From: Oppiella nova
Lineage: Eukaryota; Arthropoda; Arachnida; Sarcoptiformes; Oppiidae
Length of the DNA stretch: 64,000 nucleotides
Assembly: GCA_905397405.1 (NCBI GenBank)
Contig: CAJPVJ010000018.1
Span: 1-64,000, forward strand
Direction: 5' to 3'
The translations under genes and the position numbers were made by a program. Positions 7,683 through 45,003 of this stretch are shown here, in pieces (within the stretch, counting starts at the first letter, position 1; every line of letters begins with the position of its first letter). The notes beneath the pieces were generated by a model. The model was not told where the DNA came from. It worked only from the letters and a program-made list of their open reading frames with translations, and did not search any database.

Positions 7683-7709
7683 TTTACTGTATTTCGTAAA
7701 ATACAGTAA
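7683..7709. repeat. Perfect hairpin with 11-bp stem
   Basis: TTACTGTATTT followed by a short loop and AAATACAGTAA forms a perfect inverted repeat. It overlaps the left boundary of the tandem repeat starting at 7693, so only the first repeat copy has it complete. Confidence 0.7.
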
Positions 7710-7948
7710 CTATAAAGGAAAATATAATGCTGTAGTTGATTCAAATAATCAAATCAATTCATTATACAAAGTTTTACTTATAGGTTTTCAGAATATATTC
7801 CTAAGAGATTGTCAGGATTATTCGTAAAATACAGTAACTATAAAGGAAAATATAATGCTGTAGTTGATTCAAATAATCAAATCAATTCATTATACAAAGT
7901 TTTACTTATAGGTTTTCACAATATTTTCCTAAGAGATTGTCAGGATTT
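7693..7948. repeat. Two-copy tandem repeat, period 128 bp (A)
   Basis: The unit beginning TTCGTAAAATACAG runs 7693-7820 and again 7821-7948. The copies differ at two bases near their ends (cagaatatattcc against cacaatattttcc). No coding content. Confidence 0.95.
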
Positions 7949-8106: not shown

Positions 8107-8361
8107 AAATAGCGTATGAATAACCAGGAAGAGTTTGTACTCATTTAATTATTTAAAAGTCTACCGGATGTTAAGTTAAAATAAAATCCGGTAACAACTT
8201 TCAGTAAGCAACCTGGATGAAGTACTACAGATTAAAATAGCGTATGAATAACTAGGAAGAGTTGTACTCATTTAATTATTTAAAAATCTACCGGATGTTA
8301 AGTTAAAATAAAATCCGGTAACAACTTTCAGTAAGCTACCTGGATGAAGTACTACAGATTT
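8107..8361. repeat. Two-copy tandem repeat, period 128 bp (B)
   Basis: The unit containing AGCGTATGAATAAC runs about 8107-8234 and again about 8235-8361. The second copy lacks one base and has three or so substitutions. Its sequence is unrelated to repeat A, 160 bp away, but it has the same period. Confidence 0.93.
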
Positions 8362-16656: not shown

Positions 16657-16912
16657 TTAGCAGAGTCTCAACAAACAGTGAGTGTTGTTGTGAGCATTGC
16701 ATTGCTCTCACAGTTTGCCTCAAAACACGTGCTTTTGTTTGCATTCACTGTCTGTGCGTTTGGTTTGCAATGAATTGCATGTGATTAGCAGAGTCTCAAC
16801 AAACAGTGAGTGTTGTTGTGAGCATTGCATTGCTCTCACAGTTTGCCTCAAAACACGTGCTTTTGTTTGCATTCACTGTCTGTGCGTTTGGTTTGCAATG
16901 AATTGCATGTGA
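16657..16912. repeat. Perfect two-copy tandem repeat, period 128 bp (C), in DDX24 leader
   Basis: Copies at 16657-16784 and 16785-16912 are identical base for base. The second ends 20 bp before the DDX24 start codon at 16933, so both copies lie in the promoter/5' leader. Each carries a four-codon upstream frame (ATG AAT TGC ATG TGA; 16770-16784 and 16898-16912). Confidence 0.97.
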
Positions 16913-16932
16913 TTTTCATAATAACTCTCAAG

Positions 16933-22666: not shown

Positions 22667-25148
22667 TCATAATTTTTGAATTTCAAAGAGTTTCACATTC
22701 GTGTCGTACCAAATCGGGGGCTCAATGTTACGCAAGTATATCACTCCCCACATGTATGTACGAAACCAAAGGGTGGTGCCGGCGTTGGTCTGGTATTTCC
22801 TGATGAGTATGGGGTGCGGGACAGGCAGTAGTCCTACGAGAGTGCCGTGTTGTAAGAACTTGAGGATCTCATTCTCATCAGTGATTCCCTTATCGATACA
22901 CATCTTCTCGACCTGAGGCACCAGAACCTGAGGATAGCATATAAGATAGTATTAGTACAGTATGTTTGGGCCTCAAGTTAGGTCTCAATACCTGAAGCAT
23001 TCGCATAATGGTCTGCAACGGAAGCTTTTGTTTCCAAGAGTTTATCCATTCAGTAGATGGTGTCCATTGAGTTGTTCTCATGGAAGTACTCGAAGACTCG
23101 CTCGATTGACGACTTAATACTGTTTGACTAGAATTGGGTTCCGATGAAGCACTGGGAGTGTCCTCATCGATAGTACTCTTAGGGTTTGGATGTGTTTTTT
23201 CTGTCATTTTATCAATTCTTGGCGTTGCGGCCAAAGACACGTTCAGAGAATTCTCGTTTTGTTCACCAGTTGTGGTCGCAATCATCTCCTGTTTCTCTAA
23301 AGGGCTCGTGGGAGGGCTCGTCGTTGTTGGAGATGTCGGTGACGATAAACTGGAAGTGGAAGCCCCTGAAGACATGAACAATGATTTTGGTTTTCGCGTT
23401 AGAGTTGTCTTCTTATTTAGTGACTTCTGAACGGTTGAGAAATCTGTCGGTAAATTAGCCAAAGAGTGGAAAATATTTCGTTTTCTAATTATCGTATAAA
23501 TAAGATTCGAGTTTCCGTCGAATTGGTATTGAATGATATTATTGAAGATCTCGAGTAAGAAAAACACCAAATGATGGTTCGTTTGGTTGGAAAACAAGAA
23601 CCATTGGGTGGAGAAGGCTTCCAATAAATGCAATAATTTAGTGCTCGAAACCATTGACAATGTCTTGAGGTATGGGCTGACGTTGACAATAATGGTTAGC
23701 AAACAGTCAAAGAGCGGCTGAAGTCTTTGGTGTCCTGTTGTAATGATTTTGTGAAAGACAATAATGAGTAGATCGGCGTGAGATCCACTAAATATGGGTA
23801 AATCCATGGGAACGCTGGCAGAGTAGGGCTTATTGAGACGAACCCCGAAATTTCGTTCCCCACTCAACAGCAACAGAATGAAGACTCCGATGTGTATGAG
23901 ACCTACCCGTGACTGATCAGCTCTGCTATCATTCAAATGGTAGAGAATGGGAACCAATACGTCCAGAACATCACTGCTCTTGAGAACATAGAACATAAAC
24001 TTCTTGTTATAATCGCAAACCTTCCAGAAGAGAACCAGCAATTCCTGATGGAATTGAATCTTTTTGGTTGAGTTCGGAATATATGTCTGAATCAATGGAT
24101 TGTTGAGGAGTCGTGTGAAGCCCTTCAATATAAAAGCAAAGTCTTCTTCGCGATGAATACGAGACAAGTAGTTAATGAAGAGATTGTCCTGAAGGAGGTC
24201 CTCTGCAGCGTTGCCGAAGTTGTGCGCATTGTCTGCACTGAAGTCATGATCTAATGTGACGATCAGAATCTGAAGAGCCATTTCGACAACAGCTTCTTTG
24301 GAGTCGTTGAACAACAAGTGATTGAATGGTAAATAACCGGTCGGATCGTAACTGAAGACAGTATTCAATAAAGAGGTAAAGAGTGGTAACGCGTGGCGAT
24401 TCTCAACACATGTGAAGTATTGGATCCATCGGTTGGGGGTATGTCCGGCTTCGTTGGCCGTCATATACATGGATGTACTGAAACACGTCAACAGAAGTCT
24501 CAACAATTCACTCCTGTTTTTGTCATACATTGAAGAAGTGGTGATTGGATTCGTGAATCCGACGCCATTCTCCCAAATGTATTCACAACTGTCGATGGAC
24601 TGCAAGTCTTCGGGCGGAGAGTCTGGAGCACCGAATTTACTGCCTTTTGATGGCAGAGGACTTACAGTGAAGTCGGGACAGAAGAGGAGATCACAAATGG
24701 CTAACAGCAAAGACTGGGCTAACGGGAGGTTCTCTTGTCTCACCTCTTGATGGTCTCCATGAGTGGCCACTGAAGCCGATGGAAGACTAGACCAGAAGAA
24801 TCCCTTCCAATCGGGGTCTTCGAAGATGTAGGGAAGCACTCGAGTCAAGAGACGGACACTGTTTAAGACCATCTGTTGCTGAGCCGTCGTATTGCAGAGA
24901 CTGTCCGTCGATTTGACCAGTTTTTCGACCGCTTTGTAGCAAAATGTGGCCAAATTTGAAGGCGACTCCTCCCGAAGCGCCCGGATCTCCGGCGCCGGGA
25001 TCAACGCAAACACATCCTGTATGTTAGTCACGTTCTCACACCAGAACTGATCCCAGAAGTGGTCGTCTTTGGTGTCAATCGGTTGGCTTCTTGTGGTCAG
25101 CTCTACGATGGCTTTCCTGTAATTCAGTTTTGAATCCGTGGTTCCCAT
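22667..25148 (-). CDS. HID1: HID1 (high-temperature-induced dauer formation 1 homologue)
   Basis: A peripheral Golgi protein needed for dense-core vesicle and neuropeptide sorting. Two exons, 25148-22992 and 22927-22667, encode 805 aa (human about 790). The N-terminus MGTTDSKLNYRKAI keeps the Gly2 that is myristoylated in the family. It is followed by FWDQFW, ESPSNLATFCYKAVEKLV and LPYIFEDPDW. The end is nearly identical to human: DKGITDENEILKFLQHGTL, then HPILIRKYQ and FRTYMWGVIYLRN. A Ser/Thr-rich low-complexity loop with a polythreonine patch lies at about residues 590-690, where the family is variable. The start region is repeated beyond the gap at 26201. HID1 is head to head with PEX6. 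Confidence 0.96.
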
Positions 25149-26200
25149 TCCTCACCAGATGTTGGACTAGATATCACTCAATACTATTTAATCGATTGAA
25201 TCCGACTGTCGATTGAGTCAATGATGACAATTGAGTGCTATATTCAACTCAATTCAACATATGGTTTGCCATCAATTCATGTGATCTTTGCTTACAATCC
25301 GTGACTGTTTTCCAGTGATATGTCACACAATATGACAACACATACACCTCTACTGTACTGTATGTGATGCACACTCACGAGTCAATGCTGTATAACTCTA
25401 ATGCTATTAATTTGAATGACTTTTAATAAATGGTTTCATTGAATAAGTTGTATCACATTTGTTTGAAAGTCTTAATTACACAATCATTTAATTATAATGT
25501 GGTTATAAACAGACAAATATGATTGGATCGCATCAATGGATCAGTGGTTGTGTTGTAATATTGAGAGCCCTTTAAAACAGTATTAATATTCAATAAAATA
25601 GTAACCATTAGTGACAACGAGAGCCACTCTATTAGTCTACTAATAGCCATACATTTCATCATTTGTTTGTCAATGCATTCACTTCATATGAATTGTGTAT
25701 TATTTGAACGATTGTTTGGTTCACTGATTGTCTCAATTGGTTTGCATTGCATTTGACTTTCACTTTCACTGTATTCACAAACCTATTAATGTTTGACACA
25801 ATGTTTGGTTTAAAGTTTGTGTTAAACGAAGATTTGTTTGAAACAAATGGCAGTTCCAGTGGTGATGAGGAAAGTTTGTTGAACTTCGGAAACAATGACT
25901 TGATTTGTTTGATTAAAGACCGAAGATTTGATGACTTGTTTGAAGGAAACGAATCCATAATTGGATGCATTGTTTGCAGAAGTGATCCAAAAGTGGAAAT
26001 CAATTGTTCTTCAAATGCATTATTTGTTTGCATTAAACCATTGAGAAGTGATTCAAGTGTTGACCAAATGCTTAACCAAAGAGATGTCCATTCATTGGAT
26101 CTTATTGTTAGCCAAAGATTTCTCACTCATTATAATCTTCCACTCAATCAAAACCATTTGTATCTGAAATTCATCGAAAAATGTCCCAAAATTACGAAAT
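25062..26200. repeat. First copy of a 1.14-kb direct duplication (HID1/PEX6 head-to-head region)
   Basis: Contains the first 29 codons of HID1 (minus), the shared intergenic region and the first 137 or so codons of PEX6 (plus, ATG at 25789). It is nearly identical to 26202-27342, with scattered substitutions and small indels. The PEX6 part is cut off by the gap at 26201. Confidence 0.95.
25789..26200 (+). pseudogene. Partial duplicate of the PEX6 5' coding region
   Basis: Starts MFDTMFGLKFVLNEDLFE like the full gene at 26931 and stays open up to the gap base at 26201. It is then replaced by HID1 sequence. Probably an allelic copy placed in tandem by assembly rather than a real truncated gene. 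Confidence 0.85.
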
Positions 26201-26201
26201 N
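26201..26201. other. Single-base assembly gap (n)
   Basis: The only ambiguous base in the window. It joins PEX6 coding sequence on the left with the HID1 first exon on the right, exactly at the boundary of the duplicated copies, so it marks a contig join. Confidence 0.98.
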
Positions 26202-27342
26202 GTCGTCTTTGGTGTCAATCGGTTGGCTTCTTGTGGTCAGCTCTACGATGGCTTTCCTGTAATTCAGTTTTGAATCCGTGGTTCCCATTCCTCACCAGAT
26301 GTTGGACTAGATATCACTCAATACTATTCAATCGATTCAATCCGACTGTCGATTCAGTCAATGATCACAATTGAGTGCTATATTCAACTCAATTCAACAT
26401 ATGGTTTGCCATCAATTCATGTGATCCTTGCTTACAATCCGTGACTGTTTTCCAGTGATATGTCACACAATATGACAACACATACACCTCTACTGTACTG
26501 TATGTGATGTACACTCACGAGTCAATACTGTATACTCTAATGCTATTAATTTGAATGACTTTTCATAAATGGTTTCATTGAATAAGTTGTATCGCATTTG
26601 TTTGAAAGTCTTAATTACACAATCAGTTAATTATAATGTGGTTATAAACAGACAAATATGATTGGATCGCATCAATGGATCAGTGGTTGTAATATTGAGA
26701 GCCCTTTAAAAGACTATTCATTGAATGCTATTCAATAAAATAGTAACCATTAGTGACAACGAGAGCCACTCTATTAGTCTACTAATAGCCATACATTTCA
26801 TCATTTGTTTGTCAATGCATTCAATTCATATGAATTGTGTATTATTTGAACGATTGTTTGGTTCACTGATTGTATCAATTGGTTTGCATTGCATTTGACT
26901 TTCACTTTCACTTGATTCACAAACCTATTAATGTTTGACACAATGTTTGGTTTAAAGTTTGTGTTAAACGAAGATTTGTTTGAAACAAATGGCAGTTCCA
27001 GTGGTGATGAGGAAAGTTTGTTGAACTTCGGCAACAATGACTTGATTTGTTTGATTAAAGACCGAAGATTTGATGACTTGTTTGAAGGAAACGAATCCAT
27101 AATTGGATGCATTGTTTGCAGAAGTGATCCAAAAGTGGAAATCAATTGTTCTTCAAATGCATTATTTGTTTGCATTAAACCATTGAGAAGTGATTTAAGT
27201 GTTGACCAAATGCTTAACCAAAGAGATGTCCATTCATTGGATCTTATTGTTAGCCAAAGATTTCTCACTCATTATAATCTTCCACTCAATCAAAACCATT
27301 TGTATCTGAAATTCATCGAAAAATGTCCCAAAATTACGAAAT
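26202..27342. repeat. Second copy of the 1.14-kb duplication
   Basis: Begins inside the first exon of HID1 (29 codons, antisense at 26288-26202) and continues through the shared promoter into the complete PEX6 gene. Differences from 25062-26200 look like allelic variation: single substitutions and indels of a few bases. Confidence 0.95.
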
Positions 27343-30300
27343 TAACAGTTGGTGTGAAAAATAGAGATTTCTATGAAAGCATTAAAAGTGATGTTTGGTC
27401 TCAAAGACTATTGGATTTGGTGTCCAATAATGGAGTGAAGATATTGTGCCGAAAACACGACATATTCTGCGCTAACAATGAGTTAATTGTATTGAATTGT
27501 GAGCCTATTCTCCAGGGAGTGATTGGAGTGAACACTGAATTGATTTTCATTAATATCAGCGAAACTGTGAACCAAAGTAACGATTGTAATGATGTGACGA
27601 TTACCGAGAACTCAGGCAAAGAGTTGGACAATAAGATAGTGAATGCCCTGAATCTGATGAACTTCACCACTCGATTGCTACTGAAGCCAACACTGAGTAA
27701 CACGGGATCAAGCATTTCGGCAAACAGTGGACACAATAGCCTGACAGCCATCCAAACTCTGACGGCTTCGACCACTTTCCTCAACTCCATGTCAATTGCC
27801 TTTAGGGTTGTAATACTATCGAAGAATCCATTAATAGATGAAATTGATTGCGAAAATGGTTGTGTCTTTCTCTCAACAAATGCCTTAACAAATAAACTCA
27901 AGTCTCAACCTAAAGATTGGGTCCGAATATGGCTTTCATCGGGCGATAAGTCTTTGAAACAAAAGCAACGCTTTTCACAAGTCTTTGCAATTGACTTCAT
28001 AAGCGACGATAATATTGCCTATATATCACCTCAACTGTGGTTTAATTTGCAGACACTTTCCTCAAATGAAATGACAAATCAGCCATTAATTCAAGAAAAT
28101 GTTACACTTATGGTAAGCACTATTTTCTTATACAGTATTACATTAAAAGCAAGTTTTTTCCAACTATCAGTCGAGTCTTATCTTTATTTTGTATATTTTA
28201 TTTGATTCGTTAGTAGTTTTATCAAATTGGTATTTTATTATTAATATCAATTATTAATAATTACAGTAACATTTGAATAGTAAAGTAAAACTCGTATTAC
28301 CAATTTAGTAACTTGTTTACCCCACATTCTTACTTCCTTGTATTGCACTAACTTACCATAGCGTAGCATACTGTAGAAACAATTACAGTATTGTCTTGAC
28401 AATAAATTAAATGTAACATACTGTAAAAGTGGTCAATTACTAACTAATGACTCAAATGTTTTCATGATTTTTAGATACGAAAAGACATTTTACTTAAAGA
28501 ACAGATCAAATACTCGCCTCAGATACAAATATCTCTCATTCAATCTCCAGAATATTCTGCAACCCATGACTTCTCTTCTTAATGCCTTAACAAATAAACT
28601 CAAGTCTCAACCTAAAGATTGGGTCCGAATATGGCTTTCATCGGGCGATAAGTCTTTGAAACAAAAGCAACGCTTTTCACAAGTCTTTGCAATTGACTTC
28701 ATAAGCGATGATAATATCGCCTATATATCACCTCAACTGTGGTTTAATTTGCAGACACTTTCCTCAAATGAAATCACAAATCAGCCATTAATTCAAGAAA
28801 ATGTTACACTTATGGTAAGCACTATTTTCTTATACAGTATTACATTAAAAGCAAGTTTTTTCAACTATTAGCCGAGTCTTATATTTATTTTGTATATTTT
28901 ATTTGATTCGTTAGTAGTTTTATCAAATTGGTATTTTATTACTAATATCAATTATTACTAATTACAATAACATTTGAATAGTAAAGTAAAACTCGTATTA
29001 CCAATTTAGTAACTTTTTTACCCCACATTCTTACTTCCTTGTAGTGCACTAACTTACCATAGCATAGCATACTGTAGAAACAATTACAGTATTGTGTTGA
29101 CAATAAATTAAATGTAACATACTGTAATACTGTACTGGTCAATTACTAACTAATGACTATTTACAAAAGTACTAAAAATCTATGCTTTTCTGTAAAATGA
29201 ATTTCTTGTCTAGTTTATGAGCGGAGTCTATGTTTATAGAGAGTAAGTTAGAGGTCTTATAAGACGTTGGGTACTGAAGAGAAGAATATTAAAAAGTTAT
29301 TTCAATAAAAAGCGATATATTGTGAAGAATGATGTGATTGGGATCTGGAGTCAAGACGACCCCTTTTATCACAACAAATCAAAAGGCGTATCCCATAACC
29401 AATGGCCAGTTATCTATTTTAGAGTTAATTCAATTGAAGGGAATGGATGTTTGATTGACTCGAATCATTCAAATTTATACCAAACCGGAAGCACTCACAG
29501 TCTTATTCCTGCAACTCTTGGGTCCTACTATCGGACAAATATAATGCAATTTGAGGACAATCCCATCCCTTTAGGCTTAGATTCTTATGTCAAATGTTTA
29601 TGCGATTTAGTTATGCCTTATTTGATGCCAAAGCGAACATCCATTGGAATGGTTATGATTGAGGGGCCCATCGGTTCCGGAAAGAAGACAATTGTGAGAG
29701 CGATGTGTAAGAACTGGAATCTCCATCTCTATCACGTGAACACTAATGACATATTGGGTGATACGGGCGGACAAACGGAAACTAAGATGAGGGCCGCGCT
29801 CTCGAAAGCAATGGTGTATTCGCCGACTGTTGTCATGATTTCCAATATTAATATTCTGGCGAACAATGAGTTATTCGATGACTCGAGGATTGCAAAGATT
29901 TTCAGTCAAACAATGTTTGAAATGAATGACGCGAACAGTGAATATCCAATAGTAGTCATTGCAACCAATTCTGAACCAAAATTATTTGCTTGCAATGAAT
30001 TGAACTCATTGTTCATTCACTCACTAGAAGTGGATGGTCTCGATGTGGAGGAAAGGGAGTCTATATTAAGATCACTTATGGGACAAATACCCACCAGTGA
30101 TGTCCACTTCAAAGAATTGGCCCAAAAGAGCTCTACATTGAATTTGTCTGATTTAAAAGCTTTAGTCTTAAAAGCTCTCAAATATGCTTTCGAGTCATTT
30201 AATGATAACAATGACAACATAGATGCGAGTGATTTAACCCTATCAGGAGTGGTTGTGACCAATGATTATCTCGTGAGAGCTTTGAATGATTTGCAGAAAA

Positions 30301-31127
30301 TGCATTCCGAAGCAATCGGTTCACCAAACATCCCAAATGTTAAATGGGAGGACATTGGAGGTCATGAAGCAATTAAATCGGAAATTTTAGATACAATACA
30401 ATTACCCCTCGAATGTCCACAACTGATATCTCTTGGTTTCAAGCGCTCAGGAGTTCTTCTATACGGCCCGCCCGGCACTGGGAAGACACTGCTGGCCAAA
30501 GCAGCCGCCACTCAGTGTTCTCTTAACTTCTTGAGCGTTAAGGGACCGGAACTGATCAATATGTTTGTCGGACAAAGTGAAGAGAATGTCCGCAATATAT
30601 TCTTGAGGGCCCAGAAGTGCGCGCCGTCTGTCATATTCTTTGATGAATTGGATTCATTGGCGCCAAACAGAGGCCATAGCGGAGACTCCGGTGGTGTTAT
30701 GGATAGAGTGGTGTCTCAATTGTTGGCAGAAATGGATGGAATCAATAAATGTAATCAAGTGTTTGTGATCGGGGCCACAAACAGAGTGGACCTATTGGAC
30801 AGCGCACTCCTTAGGCCCGGAAGGTTTGACCGTTTATTATATGTGGGAATCGCTGAGGACTCTGAATCAAGACTTAAGATATTAAAGGCTTTGACCCGAA
30901 AATTTAATTTCGAGAGTGATCTCGATTTGGAAGGGATTGAGAGGTTGTGTCCGTCCGGCCTGTCGGGCGCCGACTTGTACTCCATTTGTTCCAATGCTTT
31001 GATGAAAGCAATTGAGAGGAATATTCGACAATTGAATGACAAGACTCTGGCCGAAGAGGAATTAAGCGAAATTGTGGTACAAATGTCTGATTTCACGTCT
31101 GTTTTGCCCAAAACTTATGACAATTGA
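26931..31127 (+). CDS. PEX6: PEX6, peroxisomal AAA ATPase (assembly-damaged)
   Basis: With PEX1 it forms the hexamer that pulls PEX5 from the peroxisome membrane. Exons: 26931-28112, 28475 to about 28580, and 29214-31127. D1 has a Walker A loop GPIGSGKK and a Walker-B-like stretch without the acidic pair, as usual for PEX6 D1. D2 is complete: GPPGTGKT, VKGPELINMFVGQSEENVRN, FFDELDSLAP, GDSGGVMDRVVSQLLAEMDG, GATNRVDLLDSALLRPGRFD and TRKFNF, matching human PEX6 closely. Two problems interrupt the reading. The exon at 28475 runs into a second copy of the end of exon 1 (28581-28814) out of frame. Exon 3 has an in-frame TAA at 29244-29246, although coding similarity (ILKSYF...KNDVIGI) continues beyond it. 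The middle of the gene is therefore unreliable here. Confidence 0.9.
27879..28452. repeat. First copy of a 0.58-kb direct duplication inside PEX6
   Basis: Covers the last 78 codons of PEX6 exon 1 and most of the following intron. It recurs at 28581-29158, offset about 702 bp, with a few differences (ATGACAAATC against ATCACAAATC, and others). Confidence 0.95.
28581..29158. repeat. Second copy of the 0.58-kb PEX6 duplication
   Basis: Fused directly to the end of the exon that starts at 28475, with no splice site and a change of frame. It ends within the intron, after which the sequence leads to the acceptor at 29212-29213. Confidence 0.95.
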
Positions 31128-35849: not shown

Positions 35850-38800
35850 TCATCTGAACAGAATGTCGGATAAACATTCCAACTGTCCGGCGAGAAAACA
35901 GGAACGGCAGCAGAATTTGGCGTAATGAGGGTTATTGCAATACTTGGCCTTCACTATAATCTCACAATTGGCAAAATATTGGCTGTCCTCGCAATCTCCA
36001 GAGAGCGGTCCTAAACATTATAATTAAAAATTATTTTTCATATTCAATTCATATAAATATCAATTGGCACTCACTGTTACTGTTGACATTAATGGGAATG
36101 GTAGCCACCGCGTCCCTATAACTATTGGCTGCACGAGTGGACATCAAAGGGCTTAGCAATCGGCTATTCAATATATGTTAATCGCACAACAAACCATCAT
36201 AGGCTATCACAGACAACAGACTGTGATTACCCTACAGTGACAACTTCTTGGTCCACTAACAGCAATGCCTCCCATTCACTATACATTCCAACTCAAGAGT
36301 CATTCCAACCGTATATTCTGAAGCACTCGATATAATCTGTACATTCAGTGGTGAATCTGAATTGGTTGTCAATTTTGGTGAATAAATAAAATTTAAAAAT
36401 AAATATAAAAAGCATTACGTAATTTTACTAGATAAATATTATTACAAAAAGTATATTAGTAAAATTAATAAAACAGTTAATATTAGTAAATTAGTAAATC
36501 ATTAGTCATACCATATCTATGATCAGGTAATATAGGTCTTAAGTTTGGATCAATTGGTTGAATGTTACCATTGAGTGTATAATTAGTTTGTTCTCTAATA
36601 CTGGTTGAGTTAAACGAAGAGGAATCGTATGGTCTAATGTCAGGTTCGGATGAAGAAAAGTCAAGTAATAACATGACATCCCACAGAGCAATAGGTCCTA
36701 AACCATTGTACGCCTATTCAAAATGTTAATCAAGTCTAATTGCTATACAGTAATCTAGTGTATGCCTGACCCATACCTGACAGGTATAAATGCCTCCGTC
36801 CTTATCATCAACTTTTCTAATAAGTAAAGTAAAATTACTGAACTGTCGGTATTGAATGCTATTTAATGGTAACATTTGCTGTCCTCTCCACCTATTAGTA
36901 TGATTTAAGTGTTATTCAGAGTTATGTTTGTTAGCATAAGAAATGGTTAATAATGTCAGACCAAGTGACTCGTGGATCAGGATTTCCAATAGCATTGCAC
37001 TGTAAAAATGACGGCAACCCCAACTGTGCTATTACTATTTGAGGCCCGGGCAATATGCGTGCCGGTGCTAACACAGTTGCATAATATGAATTTAGTTGTT
37101 AAGTTGTTATGAATTTAGGGTTAATTAAATGTCAAAACTCTAAAACTGTACATACCGTTAATCGTAAGCTTAGTGTACATCATATTGACATTATCTGTGG
37201 TGCACTCATAAGTACCGGCGTCTTCGTTCTCCAAACTCTTGATACTAAGCGAACCATTTGGGAGGATCTGAACCCTTTCGTTAAGCAAATACAGGGGCTG
37301 TCCGTCTCTATTCCAAGACACTTGCGCCGATTGTGTCGGCAGAAAGCAATCAATGGTTACATCACTGCCAGGAGTGGCCAGCACTTCAGTTTGCGTTGAG
37401 TGGCCTCCCAACTGATTCGGGTCATAGTGTAAGCTCTTATTAGGAGTAATACCTTCGGCTAAGACACAGATATCAGCGCATCCATTGTTACAACACTTGT
37501 CGTCTCCACGACAGTCGGCGTCATTCCTGCACCGATCGACACAATCAGACGCTAACACATTAGAAGAGGATATATCTGGCGGACAGATTCCCGGCTTATT
37601 TCTTAGTCTGCAAACAGGTTGAGCTCTGGGTTCCCCTCTCTCAGCCCTATAGACTTCAACGGCACACGACTTGTCTTCGGGACATTGGAAAACATAACAG
37701 GGATTAGAGCACCGGCAGGCACTACAGCCTCTCTCGTCCACAAACTCATCGATACCGAAAGGACAGCGTTGGTCCTCGCAGTCAGACGGCGGACAGTCGT
37801 ATGATTTGGTCGATGGTTTGATTTCAGTGGGAATGGGTGTCTGAATTGGAGAGATATGCGAACAGAATCTCATACATACTTCATATGTTTTGAACCGATT
37901 CTTATTGCCATTACAACCGCCGTAAACAAATGGAAGACAGTTATGGCTCTGGGGGTCATAAAACCAAAAGGCTTCGGTCTGACGACACGGCCCCGACTCC
38001 ACATCCAAACGACACACAACTGTTTAACAGAAATCAAATTATAGGCACCAAGTTGTTCATGATAAATACTTAATCATTTTAAGCAATGTAGTTTACCTTC
38101 GCTGGAATCGTCAACTCCCGGACCTTCAATGGGTTTGGAAGTCTTGGCCAGACATCTATTTTCACATTCTTCTCTATTCTCAAAGCGATTCTCATTTCCA
38201 GCACATCCACCAAAAATGAATTGTTTGCACGCATTGTCTTCTCGTGAGTAATGCCATCGCGGAAAGTATCCCTTACAGACACCCGCCTCATGCGGCAGGT
38301 CACAGATGTTAGCAGTAGGGGCTGTCACAGAGCTCGGGTATGGACCTCTGTTTTGACATTGAGTTTCACACATCTCTTTACTGTTATATCGATTAGCATT
38401 TCCATGACATCCACTAAATAAGAATTCCAGACATTCATTGGCGTTGACGTCGAAATACCATTGAGTGAATCGTCCGGAACACGAACCGACCACTTTAGAT
38501 CTGAAATCACACCACCATATGACTAAATGGGTTATATTACTTATTTCTTACTAATTATTCTATCAAATAAAATTAGAAAAAATGTGTACACGAACAATTA
38601 GTACACGGACTTTTGAAAGTTCTATAACTTTTGCTAAAATAATTAATTTATAGTTAAAATGATAGATCAATTTGATTCATACAGTCTGCAAATGTCTTGA
38701 GAGTTCCAACACTTGGCCTCACAATCGCTTCGAGATGTGAACCTATTTTCATTGCCATCACATCCCCCATAGAGAAACTCTTTGCACACACCGTCTGTCC

Positions 38801-41800
38801 TGTCATAGAACCATCGGATCTCGTTTTGAAAACAGGGACCGGAATCGTATGATTTGAAGCAGAACTCCGTTTTGAAGTGTTGGACAGAGAGTTCAGTTGA
38901 GACAACAGTAAAAGGGCCGCATCTTTGAGTGCACTCTTCAAATGAACCGAAATTATTTTCATTGCCTTTACAGCCAGAGTAGTAAAACCGATGACATCTC
39001 TTATCTTCGACATCATAATGCCAACGCTCTCTATAGTCATAGCAATTGCCGCTCTCTTTGGGCTGATGGCAGGCATTGCGGTCAGAGTGGACGTAAAGAC
39101 ACGACCGCTCGCACGCTGTCCTGTCGTCAAAACGATTGCCATTCCCTTCACAGCCTCCATAATAAAATCGTTCACATCGTCCGGATTTTGTATTGAAATA
39201 CCATTGAATGATAGCTGCTCTACAGGGACCCTCTGCCCGGGGTAATGAGCACACGTTGTCGGCAATGGGCAACACTTTGGTTTGATTGCATTGTCTCTCG
39301 CAGGCGCTCTTATCTACAAATCGATTCCTATTGCCTTCGCATCCGCTGTACACGAATTCACGGCAAACACTATAAGTGCTATCGAAGTACCAGCGCGGGA
39401 ATGACCCCAAACAGGGTCCCTCTGCCTTCGGGAAGCCACAGATTTCTTGCGGACTTTGAGAGCCACACGAGTTTCTACATTCCTCTTCTGATTGGAAGTT
39501 ATTCTGATTACCTTTACAGCCGCCATAAGTGAATGGCAGACAACGATTCTCCTCTTTTCGGTAGTGCCAGCGCTCGTAGTTTCCACGACACGGACCTACA
39601 GGTTATCACATCATTACAACTCATTCACACGTTTTTAAATATCTTATATATTTGAATCAATATAGAGTCTATACGTACCAACTGATGGTGGCTGTTCACA
39701 CCTGTCCAGAATGGTCTCCTGATGGACACACGTCTGTTCGCATATATCTTTGGTTTCATATCTATTGGTATTGCCGAGACATCCGCCGTAAACGAATTGT
39801 TCGCAACTTCTGGCTTCAGGATTGAAGTACCACAAGACATAGGAGCCATTGCAGGGACCGCTCACTTTGGGCAGAGCGCACCTCTCAGGCCCTTCTGGAC
39901 TGACACACGAGCGCTCGCATTGCTCTTGAGATGAGAACCGATTGCCGTTACCTTCACAGCCCCCGTACCAGAACCTGTTACAGCCTCCATAGGCCACATC
40001 GAAATACCACTTGACTGTGAAGTTACGACACGAACCCCTCTCTTTGCTCAGACCACACACCTCTGACACTAGTTTCAAGTCCAGGGAAGGACCAGAAGGG
40101 CAGCCCTCAAACTTCGGCCCATAGGCTATAGTGACCCCATCGTGACAACAACCAAATGGTGTGTTAGCACAGGAACAGCCTTCAAACTTAGGTCCTGTCG
40201 CTGGAATGGTAGAGCCCGGACAACAGCCAAAACTGAGTGAATCGCACGGACAGCCGGCATAGTTGGGTCCTTTGGATATAGAAACCATATCTGGACAGCA
40301 CCCGTGCATCGATGACTCACAACTACAGCCCTCATAATTAGCCCCAATGGCTGGGGTTACGCCTATAAATCATTTGATATACAAGTATTTGAATATAATA
40401 TTTAATATAATATAATATAATATTTTTATTTATTAAAAACATGATTACATACCGTCACTACAACACCCGTAAAGCATACGACTGCATATACAGCCGTCAA
40501 AATCTGGTCCCCGAGCGGGTGTATACTTGTCTTGACAACAGCCGTTGGGAACTAAGGCGACAAAAGATGTTTAAATAAATAGTAAATCATTCTCTTAATA
40601 TATAATTTTCAGCTTGTTCAATTCTGTTGATTCAATTCAATATATAATTATGTTGGTTATCCAAATACAACTAAATTCATAAAACTTCAAATATTAAAAC
40701 TACTTACAGTCCTCACAGGTGCAGCCATAATACCTAGGTCCAGTGGCCGCCTTTTTTCCAGTGGGACAGCACCCGAATTCAGTTGCATTGCAATCGATCA
40801 CATCTGTTGTGATTTCAGGGACACACGTGCTGTCCGTACAGTTAGTGATGTCTCCGCCAACAATCACATCTCCACTTCCCTCAGACTTTTGTCCTTCGCC
40901 TATGTCTGTGCCATCAGCACAGCCCTCACCCGATCCCTCTCCCGAGCCCTCGACGAGGGATTCGTCACATTCCTTAGTCTCGTGAATGGCCAGTACTTTA
41001 ACGGGCACTTCGGTAGTTGTGGTTGTAGTCGGCTCCTCAGTTGTAGTCATTATTGTGGTAACTGTTGTGGTTTCGGGTATAGGTTGAGGGCATTCCTCAA
41101 AGGTAGTAGAGTTAGCAATTGATAAGCCGTCTGGACAGCACCCAAACCGTGTAAAATTGCACAAAACTTGACATCCCTTTAGGAAGGGTCCGAAAGCAGC
41201 GGTTTCTAAATCAGGACAACAGCCAAATTGAGTGGCATTACAACCATCTGTCATATTAATTGGCGGACATTCAGAATAGCCATCGCCAGCGGGAGTGAGA
41301 CCATCGGGACAACAGCCAGACTTAGTGTCTTTACAGCCGCCAACACCAATCAACTGGTCGTCGTCGCACTCAAACGTATTGCAGTCCTCTTTCGTAAGCG
41401 GTTTGAGACTTGTGTCACAGCTTTCATCCAAAACTAATTCATCGCTTTGATTGAAACAAATCACTTTTCGTGACATTTGTCCGCCACTGCAGGGAACTGA
41501 TCGATAAAACGACAAATATTTACGGATAATTAATATATAACAAATTATATTATAAAGACATACCGGTGCACATCTCGTAGGGCGCACTGAACCAAATTCC
41601 TTCGCAATCAGATAACCGACAAACAGAAACATTTTGGGGTCTTTCAGAAACACATTCACTATCGCTGTCGACGATCACCTCTGACTTATCGTTAAGATGT
41701 GCGCAAAAGACATGTCTAGTCTGTAATCCCTCTCCGCAATCAACGCTACAATTACTCCATTCAGAAGTGAACCAAAGAGGAGCACACGGGGGCTGTTCTG

Positions 41801-42935
41801 TACACAACTGACTCGTGGCTGGAGTTCGACTGATACCACAGGCCTCTGATGGGAATGCAGTTCCGCTTTCATCCGCACAAATGGCTTTCCGGGTCTGCAC
41901 TTGAGGTCCGCATTGTTTATCACAAGACGTCCAGTCAGTGACAAACCATTCGACGCCATCGCACGGGATTTCATTGCATTCTTGTGTATGAATCGGCCGA
42001 AGAGTTGCCACACATTGGGATTCATTCACTGTCTCTCCTTTCAAAGTGCAGTTCACTTCACGGGTTTGAGTTCCGTTTCCACAGTTTGAGTCACACTATG
42101 AATAAAATATATCAGATGTAAGTGTTTTATAAATTATATCAAATCATAGTCACAAACCCGTTCCCAAACACCGGTCGTCCAAACGGGACATTCCGTCTCG
42201 CGAACGCATTTCTGTAGAGACGATGGTTTTGGTTGATTGAGTTGAAGACATTCAGTGTCCTCCAGAATACCACCGTTTGAGCTCTGAGTCGATGAGTGAC
42301 AGTATACGTGCCGATACTGAACCTCGAAATGACACAAACAGTCTGTCCATTCGGCTACTTTCCAGGCGGCACAGGGATCAGCATTACAGGTCCTGTTATT
42401 ATCAGGTCTCGTGAGTGAATCGCAAAGAGAGTCTGAGACCGGCAAGTGATCCATTACTCGGACGCAGTGGACATTTCGAGTTTGAATACCAGTGCCACAC
42501 GTGCGGCTACATTGCGAGTAATCCGAGTAAATCCACGAATAGATGGAGTGTTGGACAGGGGTCTGGGCGTCAGCCGGAACTGTGAACTCGAAAAATAAGC
42601 CTTTATTTCGCTCCCTATATAACAAGACTATTACGAGTGGCTCTGTTAAGGGACCGACGGCTCGTAAACTTTCGGGCGCCTGTATTCCAAATGGTTTTCG
42701 TTTGGAATAGTAATGAAATGTAGTTCCCGCGAATACATAGGTTTTGGGAAACTGTATCCTCCAGTTCCCATTCAAATAATACTGTCCATTGATATTACGA
42801 ACGGCTAAATAGTTATTAGTAGCAAATCGCTCCTCAATTCTGATATTATAAGCGCCGCTCGGGATCAATAGGATGTCATTATAGCCAACCCTTAACTTAT
42901 CCAAATCAAAGACGCCCTCCACTCTTCGACACGTA
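35850..42935 (-). CDS. Ppn: Papilin, multidomain extracellular matrix protein (5' end missing)
   Basis: A secreted basement-membrane glycoprotein related to ADAMTS. Exons: 42935-42158, 42095-41564, 41496-40708, 40551-40453, 40362-39679, 39595-38683, 38500-38097, 38019-37156, 37067-36962, 36891-36777, 36713-36512, 36356-36236, 36163-36075 and 36010-35850. Domain order: ADAMTS-type spacer (TCRRVEGVFDLDKL), several TSP1 repeats (CSRTCGTGIQTR, CDKQCGPQVQTR), repeated GCCPDG cassettes with a Thr-rich and Gly-Glu-Ser-rich stretch, ten Kunitz domains (for example YGGCEGNGNRF), a cysteine-rich/WAP-like part (DDKCCNNGC), Ig domains, and a PLAC domain (YCNNPHYAKFCCRSC). The signal peptide, first TSP1 and cysteine-rich domain expected upstream are not found. 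The third Ig-like part has an in-frame TAG at 36256-36258. The domain order is diagnostic for papilin. Confidence 0.93.
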
Positions 42936-43944
42936 CTTCCATTGGGTGGTGTTTGAGGTGTTAATAGATGTCAACACAGCGTGGGTATCATGACAGTATA
43001 TTTAATATACTAATCCTTATTTTAGACTTAATACTGATTTTTAGATTTTTGTAAAAGTATTGAAAGATTTCATTATTTAAGATAAAACCAAATAAATTAC
43101 ATTTTTAGGAACACAAACTTTTCTGTTGTATATAATTAGCAATGCTTAACACTATTTTTAAATTGTGCATACATTCAATGAATATTAAATATTTCTTTAA
43201 AACACACAGCTTTTGATTATTTAAGAAATAGTTTCGTTAATTCATTTAAATATAACCATTGCTTAATCAAAATGTATAGTTAAGTGAGAGGTATCTATTT
43301 ATTTGTGTATAATTCATTAGAAATAATTTTCAAATTTGTTTTTCAAGTAATTAATTTAACAGACTAAATTGTTGTTTAAGCACTCATTACCGAATTCTAT
43401 ATTTAACAACAAATAAAATAAAAAACATTTACGAATTATCTCGAAATAAATCCGATCTTAACTGTACTAAAAAGATTTAAATTTAGTTTTCTGTTTAAAA
43501 TACATATATTTATAAAACTAATAAATTTATGTAATTTATAAAAATAATTTTAATAAATCGGATGATATGTTTGTTTAGAATTTTAGAAAATGATTCATTT
43601 CCATAAGTTTTACAGTAATTTCCTTAAACATTTTGTATAAACATTTTGGCACAACTTTGTATGATATTATAGTCGTCAGTAAAGGACATTCCTCACCTCT
43701 GGCCCCATCCCTATCCCTAATTGTTATGTCTCTAACTGTTAAGTAATGTCTAAATGAAATGCCTTAACTGTTATACTTCTCATACAATCAATGGAAGATT
43801 ATAAATTATAACAAAACCTTAACTGACTGAATATATTTTGTTTATAAGATTAAATATTATATAAACTTATAATATTTTGTGCAAATTATACGAAAAAATA
43901 GTTTGTGAGAAACAAAAATGAGTGGAAAGAAAGTGAAAATCGCC

Positions 43945-44071
43945 CGTTCCGAATACAGATTTCCGAAAATTCTTTATTGTTCTTGAGTTCGAAAACAAGT
44001 TTGTAACGAAGACTTTCTTTTTAAGAAAACATCTGTTGCGAATGGACTGAAAGCCTCCGAAAGTTTGTTAA
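43945..44071. repeat. 127-bp block whose plain complement recurs downstream
   Basis: Reading 43945-44071 and replacing each base by its partner, without reversing, gives exactly 44474-44600 over all 127 bases. The base just before the block breaks the match, and so does the base just after it. Confidence 0.97.
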
Positions 44072-44472
44072 GAATAAAATTAAAATATTCACAAAATGTA
44101 CGAATAATTTACTACAAATGCTTGTATTATTCATAACTTCTAATTGAGATGTTATTAATTAATAGGAGAAGATGTGAGAAGAGTTGGAGAGTATTGGTGT
44201 TTAGGCGCACATACTTCCCACCGATCCTATGCTGCTACTGCAGTGTAAGCGCAACACATTTGGGCTCAAAGTTTTGGTGAACTAATGATTTTACTACTAA
44301 ATGCATGGCTAAGAGTAGTGCAAAAATCTTCGCTCTATAGGCATCGACTCCCACTAAAAGAATATTGCAATTCTTAGGGGCGGTTTCAGACACCGGCCCT
44401 CACTCTCAGACTATTTTGTGAGACTAATCGTAAAAAGTAATCTTTACTATAACTATCAATAAATACTATGCG
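44072..44472. repeat. First copy of a 0.4-kb direct repeat
   Basis: Matches 44601-45003 in the same orientation, offset 529-531 bp, with scattered substitutions and small indels. The core (about 44200-44400) is less AT-rich. I do not recognise it as a gene, snRNA or known element. Confidence 0.93.
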
Positions 44473-44473
44473 A

Positions 44474-44600
44474 GCAAGGCTTATGTCTAAAGGCTTTTAA
44501 GAAATAACAAGAACTCAAGCTTTTGTTCAAACATTGCTTCTGAAAGAAAAATTCTTTTGTAGACAACGCTTACCTGACTTTCGGAGGCTTTCAAACAATT
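44474..44600. repeat. Unreversed complement of 43945-44071
   Basis: Identical over 127 bases to the base-by-base complement of the upstream block, in the same left-to-right order. DNA strands are antiparallel, so no normal duplication or inversion produces this. Confidence 0.97.
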
Positions 44601-45003
44601 AAACAAAATTAAAATATTCACAAAATGTACGAATAATTTACTACAAATGCTTGTAGTATTCATAACTTCTAATTAAGATGTTATTAATTAATAGGAGAAG
44701 ATGTGAGAAGAGTTGGAGAGTATTTGGTGTTTAGGCGCACATACTTCCCACCGATCCTACGCTGTTCACTGCTGTGTAAGCGCAACACATTTGGGCTCAA
44801 AGTTTTGGTGAACTAATGATTTTACTACTAAATGCATGGCTAAGAGTAGTGCGAAAATCTTCGCTCTATAGGCATTGACTCCCACTAAAAGAATATTGCA
44901 ATTCTTAGGGGCGGTTTCAGACACCGGCCCTCACTCTCAGACTATTTTGTGAGACTAATCGTAAAAAGTAATCTTTACTATAACTATCAATAAATACTAT
45001 GCG
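44601..45003. repeat. Second copy of the 0.4-kb direct repeat
   Basis: Same orientation as 44072-44472 and a few percent different, as two alleles might be. After it, the sequence continues into unique DNA (GCGCTTCCCGTG). Confidence 0.93.

Follow-up and report, generated by a model that had tools for sequence, protein, structure and literature searches.

Can a stretch of DNA hold a block of bases followed by the complement of that same block in the same left-to-right order, and, if not, how could such a pair come to stand in a deposited assembly? The question is raised by the 64-kb stretch of Oppiella nova analyzed here as a whole (the window), for which a first-pass annotation had claimed that 44474-44600 equals the unreversed complement of 43945-44071. 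Direct comparison of the two segments confirmed this claim at 127 of 127 bases, with the match extending by 0 bases on either side of the 127. Neither is this pair a real inverted repeat, the best reverse-complement match between the two copies being 32 nt at 81% identity (17 nt exact). The accompanying argument that copying, inversion and transposition cannot yield an unreversed complement from antiparallel strands stands as established DNA chemistry, and to our knowledge none of these processes gives a complement without reversal in antiparallel DNA. As biology, an unreversed complement is not a real feature; on the evidence of the sequence, the pair is almost certainly an assembly artefact, and a recurrent one. 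Its two members (block 1) are:

43945-44071, no strand assigned: block 1, first copy, 127 bp; one of two copies, one of which is the unreversed complement of the other
44474-44600, no strand assigned: block 1, second copy, 127 bp; unreversed complement of 43945-44071

A scan of the whole window revealed a second long unreversed complement, missed in the first-pass annotation, in which 28454-28581 and 29160-29287 correspond at 128 of 128 positions (a 127-base block plus one chance match). After these two long cases the longest unreversed complement in the window is 17 bases, compared with 15-17 in 20 windows simulated with matching dinucleotide content and at most 18 in 80 unrelated archaeal contigs (1.09 Mb); chance is excluded for both long cases. 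A search of the window for hidden flipped blocks via gain of reading frame gave no excess over control transformations, and a k-mer scan for such blocks was low-powered, 8-17% of ordinary windows scoring negative.

The second case (block 2) falls in a PEX6-like gene, where the reading frame tells the natural copy from the erroneous one:

28454-28580, no strand assigned: block 2, natural copy, 127 bp, with an open frame after a TTTTTAG acceptor-like site
29160-29286, no strand assigned: block 2, erroneous copy; unreversed complement of 28454-28580
29287-31127, plus strand: downstream portion of the PEX6-like AAA ATPase gene, continuing the frame of the natural block 2

In the deposited 29160-29286, in-frame stops close the exon. 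Un-complementing exactly these 127 bases yields a single open frame that starts from the TTTTTAG site, crosses the block and, with 29287 kept as deposited, reaches SSLLKSYFNKKRYIVKNDVIG and SSLLKSYFNKKRYIVKNDVIGIWSQDDPF of a PEX6-like protein. Since the reading frame is correct with 127 un-complemented bases followed by the deposited 29287, the length of block 2 is fixed at 127, and since this operation mends the PEX6-like exon, the deposited 29160-29286 is an error. The k-mer odds for 28454-28580 as the natural copy (4-19) agree with the reading frame. The long frame downstream of the block encodes two AAA ATPase domains and matches PEX6 over residues 166-629 in one stretch, although in the PDB comparison these domains also match other AAA proteins; the same comparison gave no useful match for the exon of block 2 itself.

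Both blocks lie in near-identical tandem duplicates (about 530 and 700 bp), a setting that the first-pass annotation left unmentioned. The units and the bases that separate them are as follows:

44072-44472, plus strand: duplicate unit U1, whose last 127 bases (44346-44472) exactly equal 44877-45003 and mark a contig end
44473, plus strand: single spacer base separating the end of the shared 127-mer (44472) from the first base of the block (44474)
44601-45003, plus strand: duplicate unit U2, 98-99% identical to U1
27880-28453, plus strand: duplicate unit, first haplotype, of the PEX6-like gene, repeated at 28582-29159
28581, plus strand: single spacer base separating the last base of the block (28580) from the start of the shared 127-mer (28582)
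28582-29159, plus strand: duplicate unit, second haplotype, in which 28582-28708 exactly equals 27880-28006
26201, plus strand: sole N of the window and site of a third contig join; directly after it a third duplication begins, 26202-26328 repeating the 127 bases of 25062-25188 without a mismatch

The two PEX6-like units, 27880-28453 and 28582-29159, are 95-99% identical. Across the three joins, the adjacent units (about 400, 570 and 1140 bp) share 95-99% identity, with the scattered SNPs and small indels that mark false haplotype duplication. Two of the shared runs, 25062-25188/26202-26328 and 44346-44472/44877-45003, have a length of exactly 127 bases; a third, 27880-28006/28582-28708, has the 127 and a single further base, which lies on the spacer. 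The exception is the run 26055-26200 at a join, which measures 146 bases. The duplicates are best read, from their sequence, as two haplotype arms that would have been placed end to end. The N at 26201 and the spacers (28581 and 44473) resemble gaps of minimal length inserted by a scaffolder, 44473 probably being a former one-base N at a contig join. Around the N, a near-identical tandem duplication of about 1.14 kb (25062-27342) doubles the beginning of the PEX6-like gene region, and it is a probable false haplotype duplication. Elsewhere in the window, tandem pairs at 7693-7947, 8107-8360 and 16657-16914 have periods of 128, 127 and 128 (k or k + 1); the first two are 98% and 96% identical, i.e., not fully so. 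These pairs are probably unmerged contig overlaps, and they fit the contig-join picture less cleanly. Searches for relatives among viral contigs found none, and those for RNA families in the duplicated unit gave nothing credible.

In block 1, the indications as to which copy is flipped diverge. Contig geometry favors 43945-44071 as the flipped one because a spacer is then followed by a correct k-mer, as at 26202 and 28582. If 44474-44600 were flipped instead, the block would come directly after the spacer, which fits the rule of merged overlaps less well. The k-mer odds for 43945-44071 as the natural copy are 2-6 at orders 1-4 and 0.3 at order 5, so that composition mildly favors it as natural at the lower orders and points the opposite way at order 5. 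In the 44474-44600 copy, a minus-strand reading frame, MNTTSICSKLFVHFVNILILFNCLKASESQ, extends to CAG/GTAAGC, and this putative signal-peptide frame, with a donor-like site at its end, favors that copy as natural. The perfect donor CAG/GTAAG in 44474-44600 was also considered as a strong sign of a natural copy and was dropped, this heptamer being more typical of complemented text in this window (a single AGGTAAG over both strands vs. 23 in the complemented text). Likewise, GTAAGT occurs 20 times in the window vs. 149 times in the complemented text, TGAATG/CATTCA thus being common.

De Bruijn contigs built at k = 127 have shared ends exactly one k-mer long, and both blocks resemble the 127-base overlap of two merged contigs. 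The anomalous block has exactly this length in both cases, and further 127-mers, shared without mismatch, terminate at joins of the same sequence. The proposal of the first-pass annotation that software wrote the complement of a 127-mer at a contig join is borne out by the second 127-base block and these exact shared edges, as well as by the lone N at a join and by an exon frame that the natural block 2 restores only with exactly 127 bases.

Such an outcome could arise as follows. A de Bruijn graph built from short reads at k = 127 would give contigs ending in shared 127-base k-mers; a scaffolding step would then have placed both haplotypes of heterozygous stretches end to end, creating false tandem duplications, other neighboring contigs would have been merged across their 127-base overlap, and at two such joins the k-mer would have been written as its complement, unreversed. 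If contig overlaps were written in lowercase, as in SSPACE output, and a later reverse-complement routine translated uppercase letters only, the 127 lowercase letters of an overlap would be reversed and left uncomplemented. A string that is reversed without complementing and then read on the other strand appears complemented and unreversed. We consider this combination of lowercase overlap and uppercase-only routine the most likely route, inferred at roughly even confidence. In simulation, the lowercase rule applied to contigs overlapping by 127 reproduced 28582-29700 letter for letter and, with 43945-44071 taken as flipped, 43601-44472 letter for letter; these simulations are a check of sufficiency only and hold by construction. 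The published pipeline for Oppiella nova and O. subpectinata, in which SPAdes (k up to 127) is followed by SSPACE v3.0 on several libraries and then by GapCloser (PMC8463897), has the right parts to carry this k = 127/SSPACE/GapCloser fingerprint. A literature search of incomplete coverage for the same fault found no report of it.

The same artefact might also have been produced at another step, if an assembler or gap closer wrote the terminal k-mer with the wrong strand convention and lowercase played no part, an explanation to which we would give slightly less than an even chance. Assemblers that store k-mers apart from the edge sequence could miswrite the strand of a terminal k-mer, and both downstream contigs could be read as starting with a complemented k-mer (29160 and 44474); however, the contig starts at 26202 and 28582 carry the correct k-mer, so that a fault of this kind must be intermittent. 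An early idea, that SOAPdenovo itself miswrote k-mers, was demoted to such a rival. An error of handling after assembly (e.g., in the database or in preparation of the window) is very improbable, given that the block boundaries coincide exactly with shared assembly k-mers and adjoin single-base joins, details that would be invisible to later editing.

Two further alternatives would leave more of the deposited sequence as genuine. The tandem duplications may be real and only the flipped 127-mers erroneous; adjacent units of 95-99% identity are attainable by true tandem duplication, but the duplicate edges are exact 127-mers at three places, one of them abutting the N, the PEX6-like duplicates would yield a scrambled gene, and a haplotype divergence of 1-5% at bubble arms accounts for the units, all of which makes this reading unlikely. 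That the DNA truly holds an unreversed complement, made by some unfamiliar process such as parallel-strand templating, has in its favor the perfect match in the sequence as deposited. We know of no polymerase or recombination product of this form, and the length of 127 in both cases, block edges that fall on contig joins, and a block that breaks the frame of a conserved gene until exactly 127 bases are reverted leave this possibility a negligible likelihood.

A common scaffolding chain may have a systematic, so far undescribed fault that turns k-length overlaps into unreversed complements genome-wide, a generalization that we rate as evenly balanced. Exons would then be broken in every gene that contains such an overlap, although the damage would be detectable only beside a haplotype duplicate. 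With two blocks in 64 kb, gene models of this assembly may hold nonsense over stretches of 127 bases; simply searching any assembly made with the same tools for unreversed complements of length k would expose the fault. As for the surrounding genes, the window resembles a compact arthropod-type genome, with Kunitz/ADAMTS-spacer, SNAP-25, Hid1, TADA2-like and PEX6-like genes. A papilin-like gene on the minus strand (37121-43000) carries numerous Kunitz domains together with TSP1 and an ADAMTS spacer; upstream of the spacer exon, between 43.0 and 46.0 kb, neither TSP1 nor cysteine-rich exons were recognized, and the gene may be incomplete in the window.

The locus resembles false duplications from unmerged haplotypes (PMC9516828) in that a heterozygous stretch is present in two almost identical versions, one after the other, at a join, and differs from them as they are treated in the abstract of that paper, which deals with extra copies and does not mention a complemented, unreversed block. 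As in inverted repeats, one copy of the block uses the complementary bases; unlike in inverted repeats, which are also reversed, the order of the block is kept and a reverse-complement match is limited to short stretches. The shared ends, each exactly one k-mer (127 bases) in length and with one base or none as the gap, are those of k-mer overlap residues at de Bruijn joins, which are usually identical copies on the same strand, whereas here one copy is complemented.
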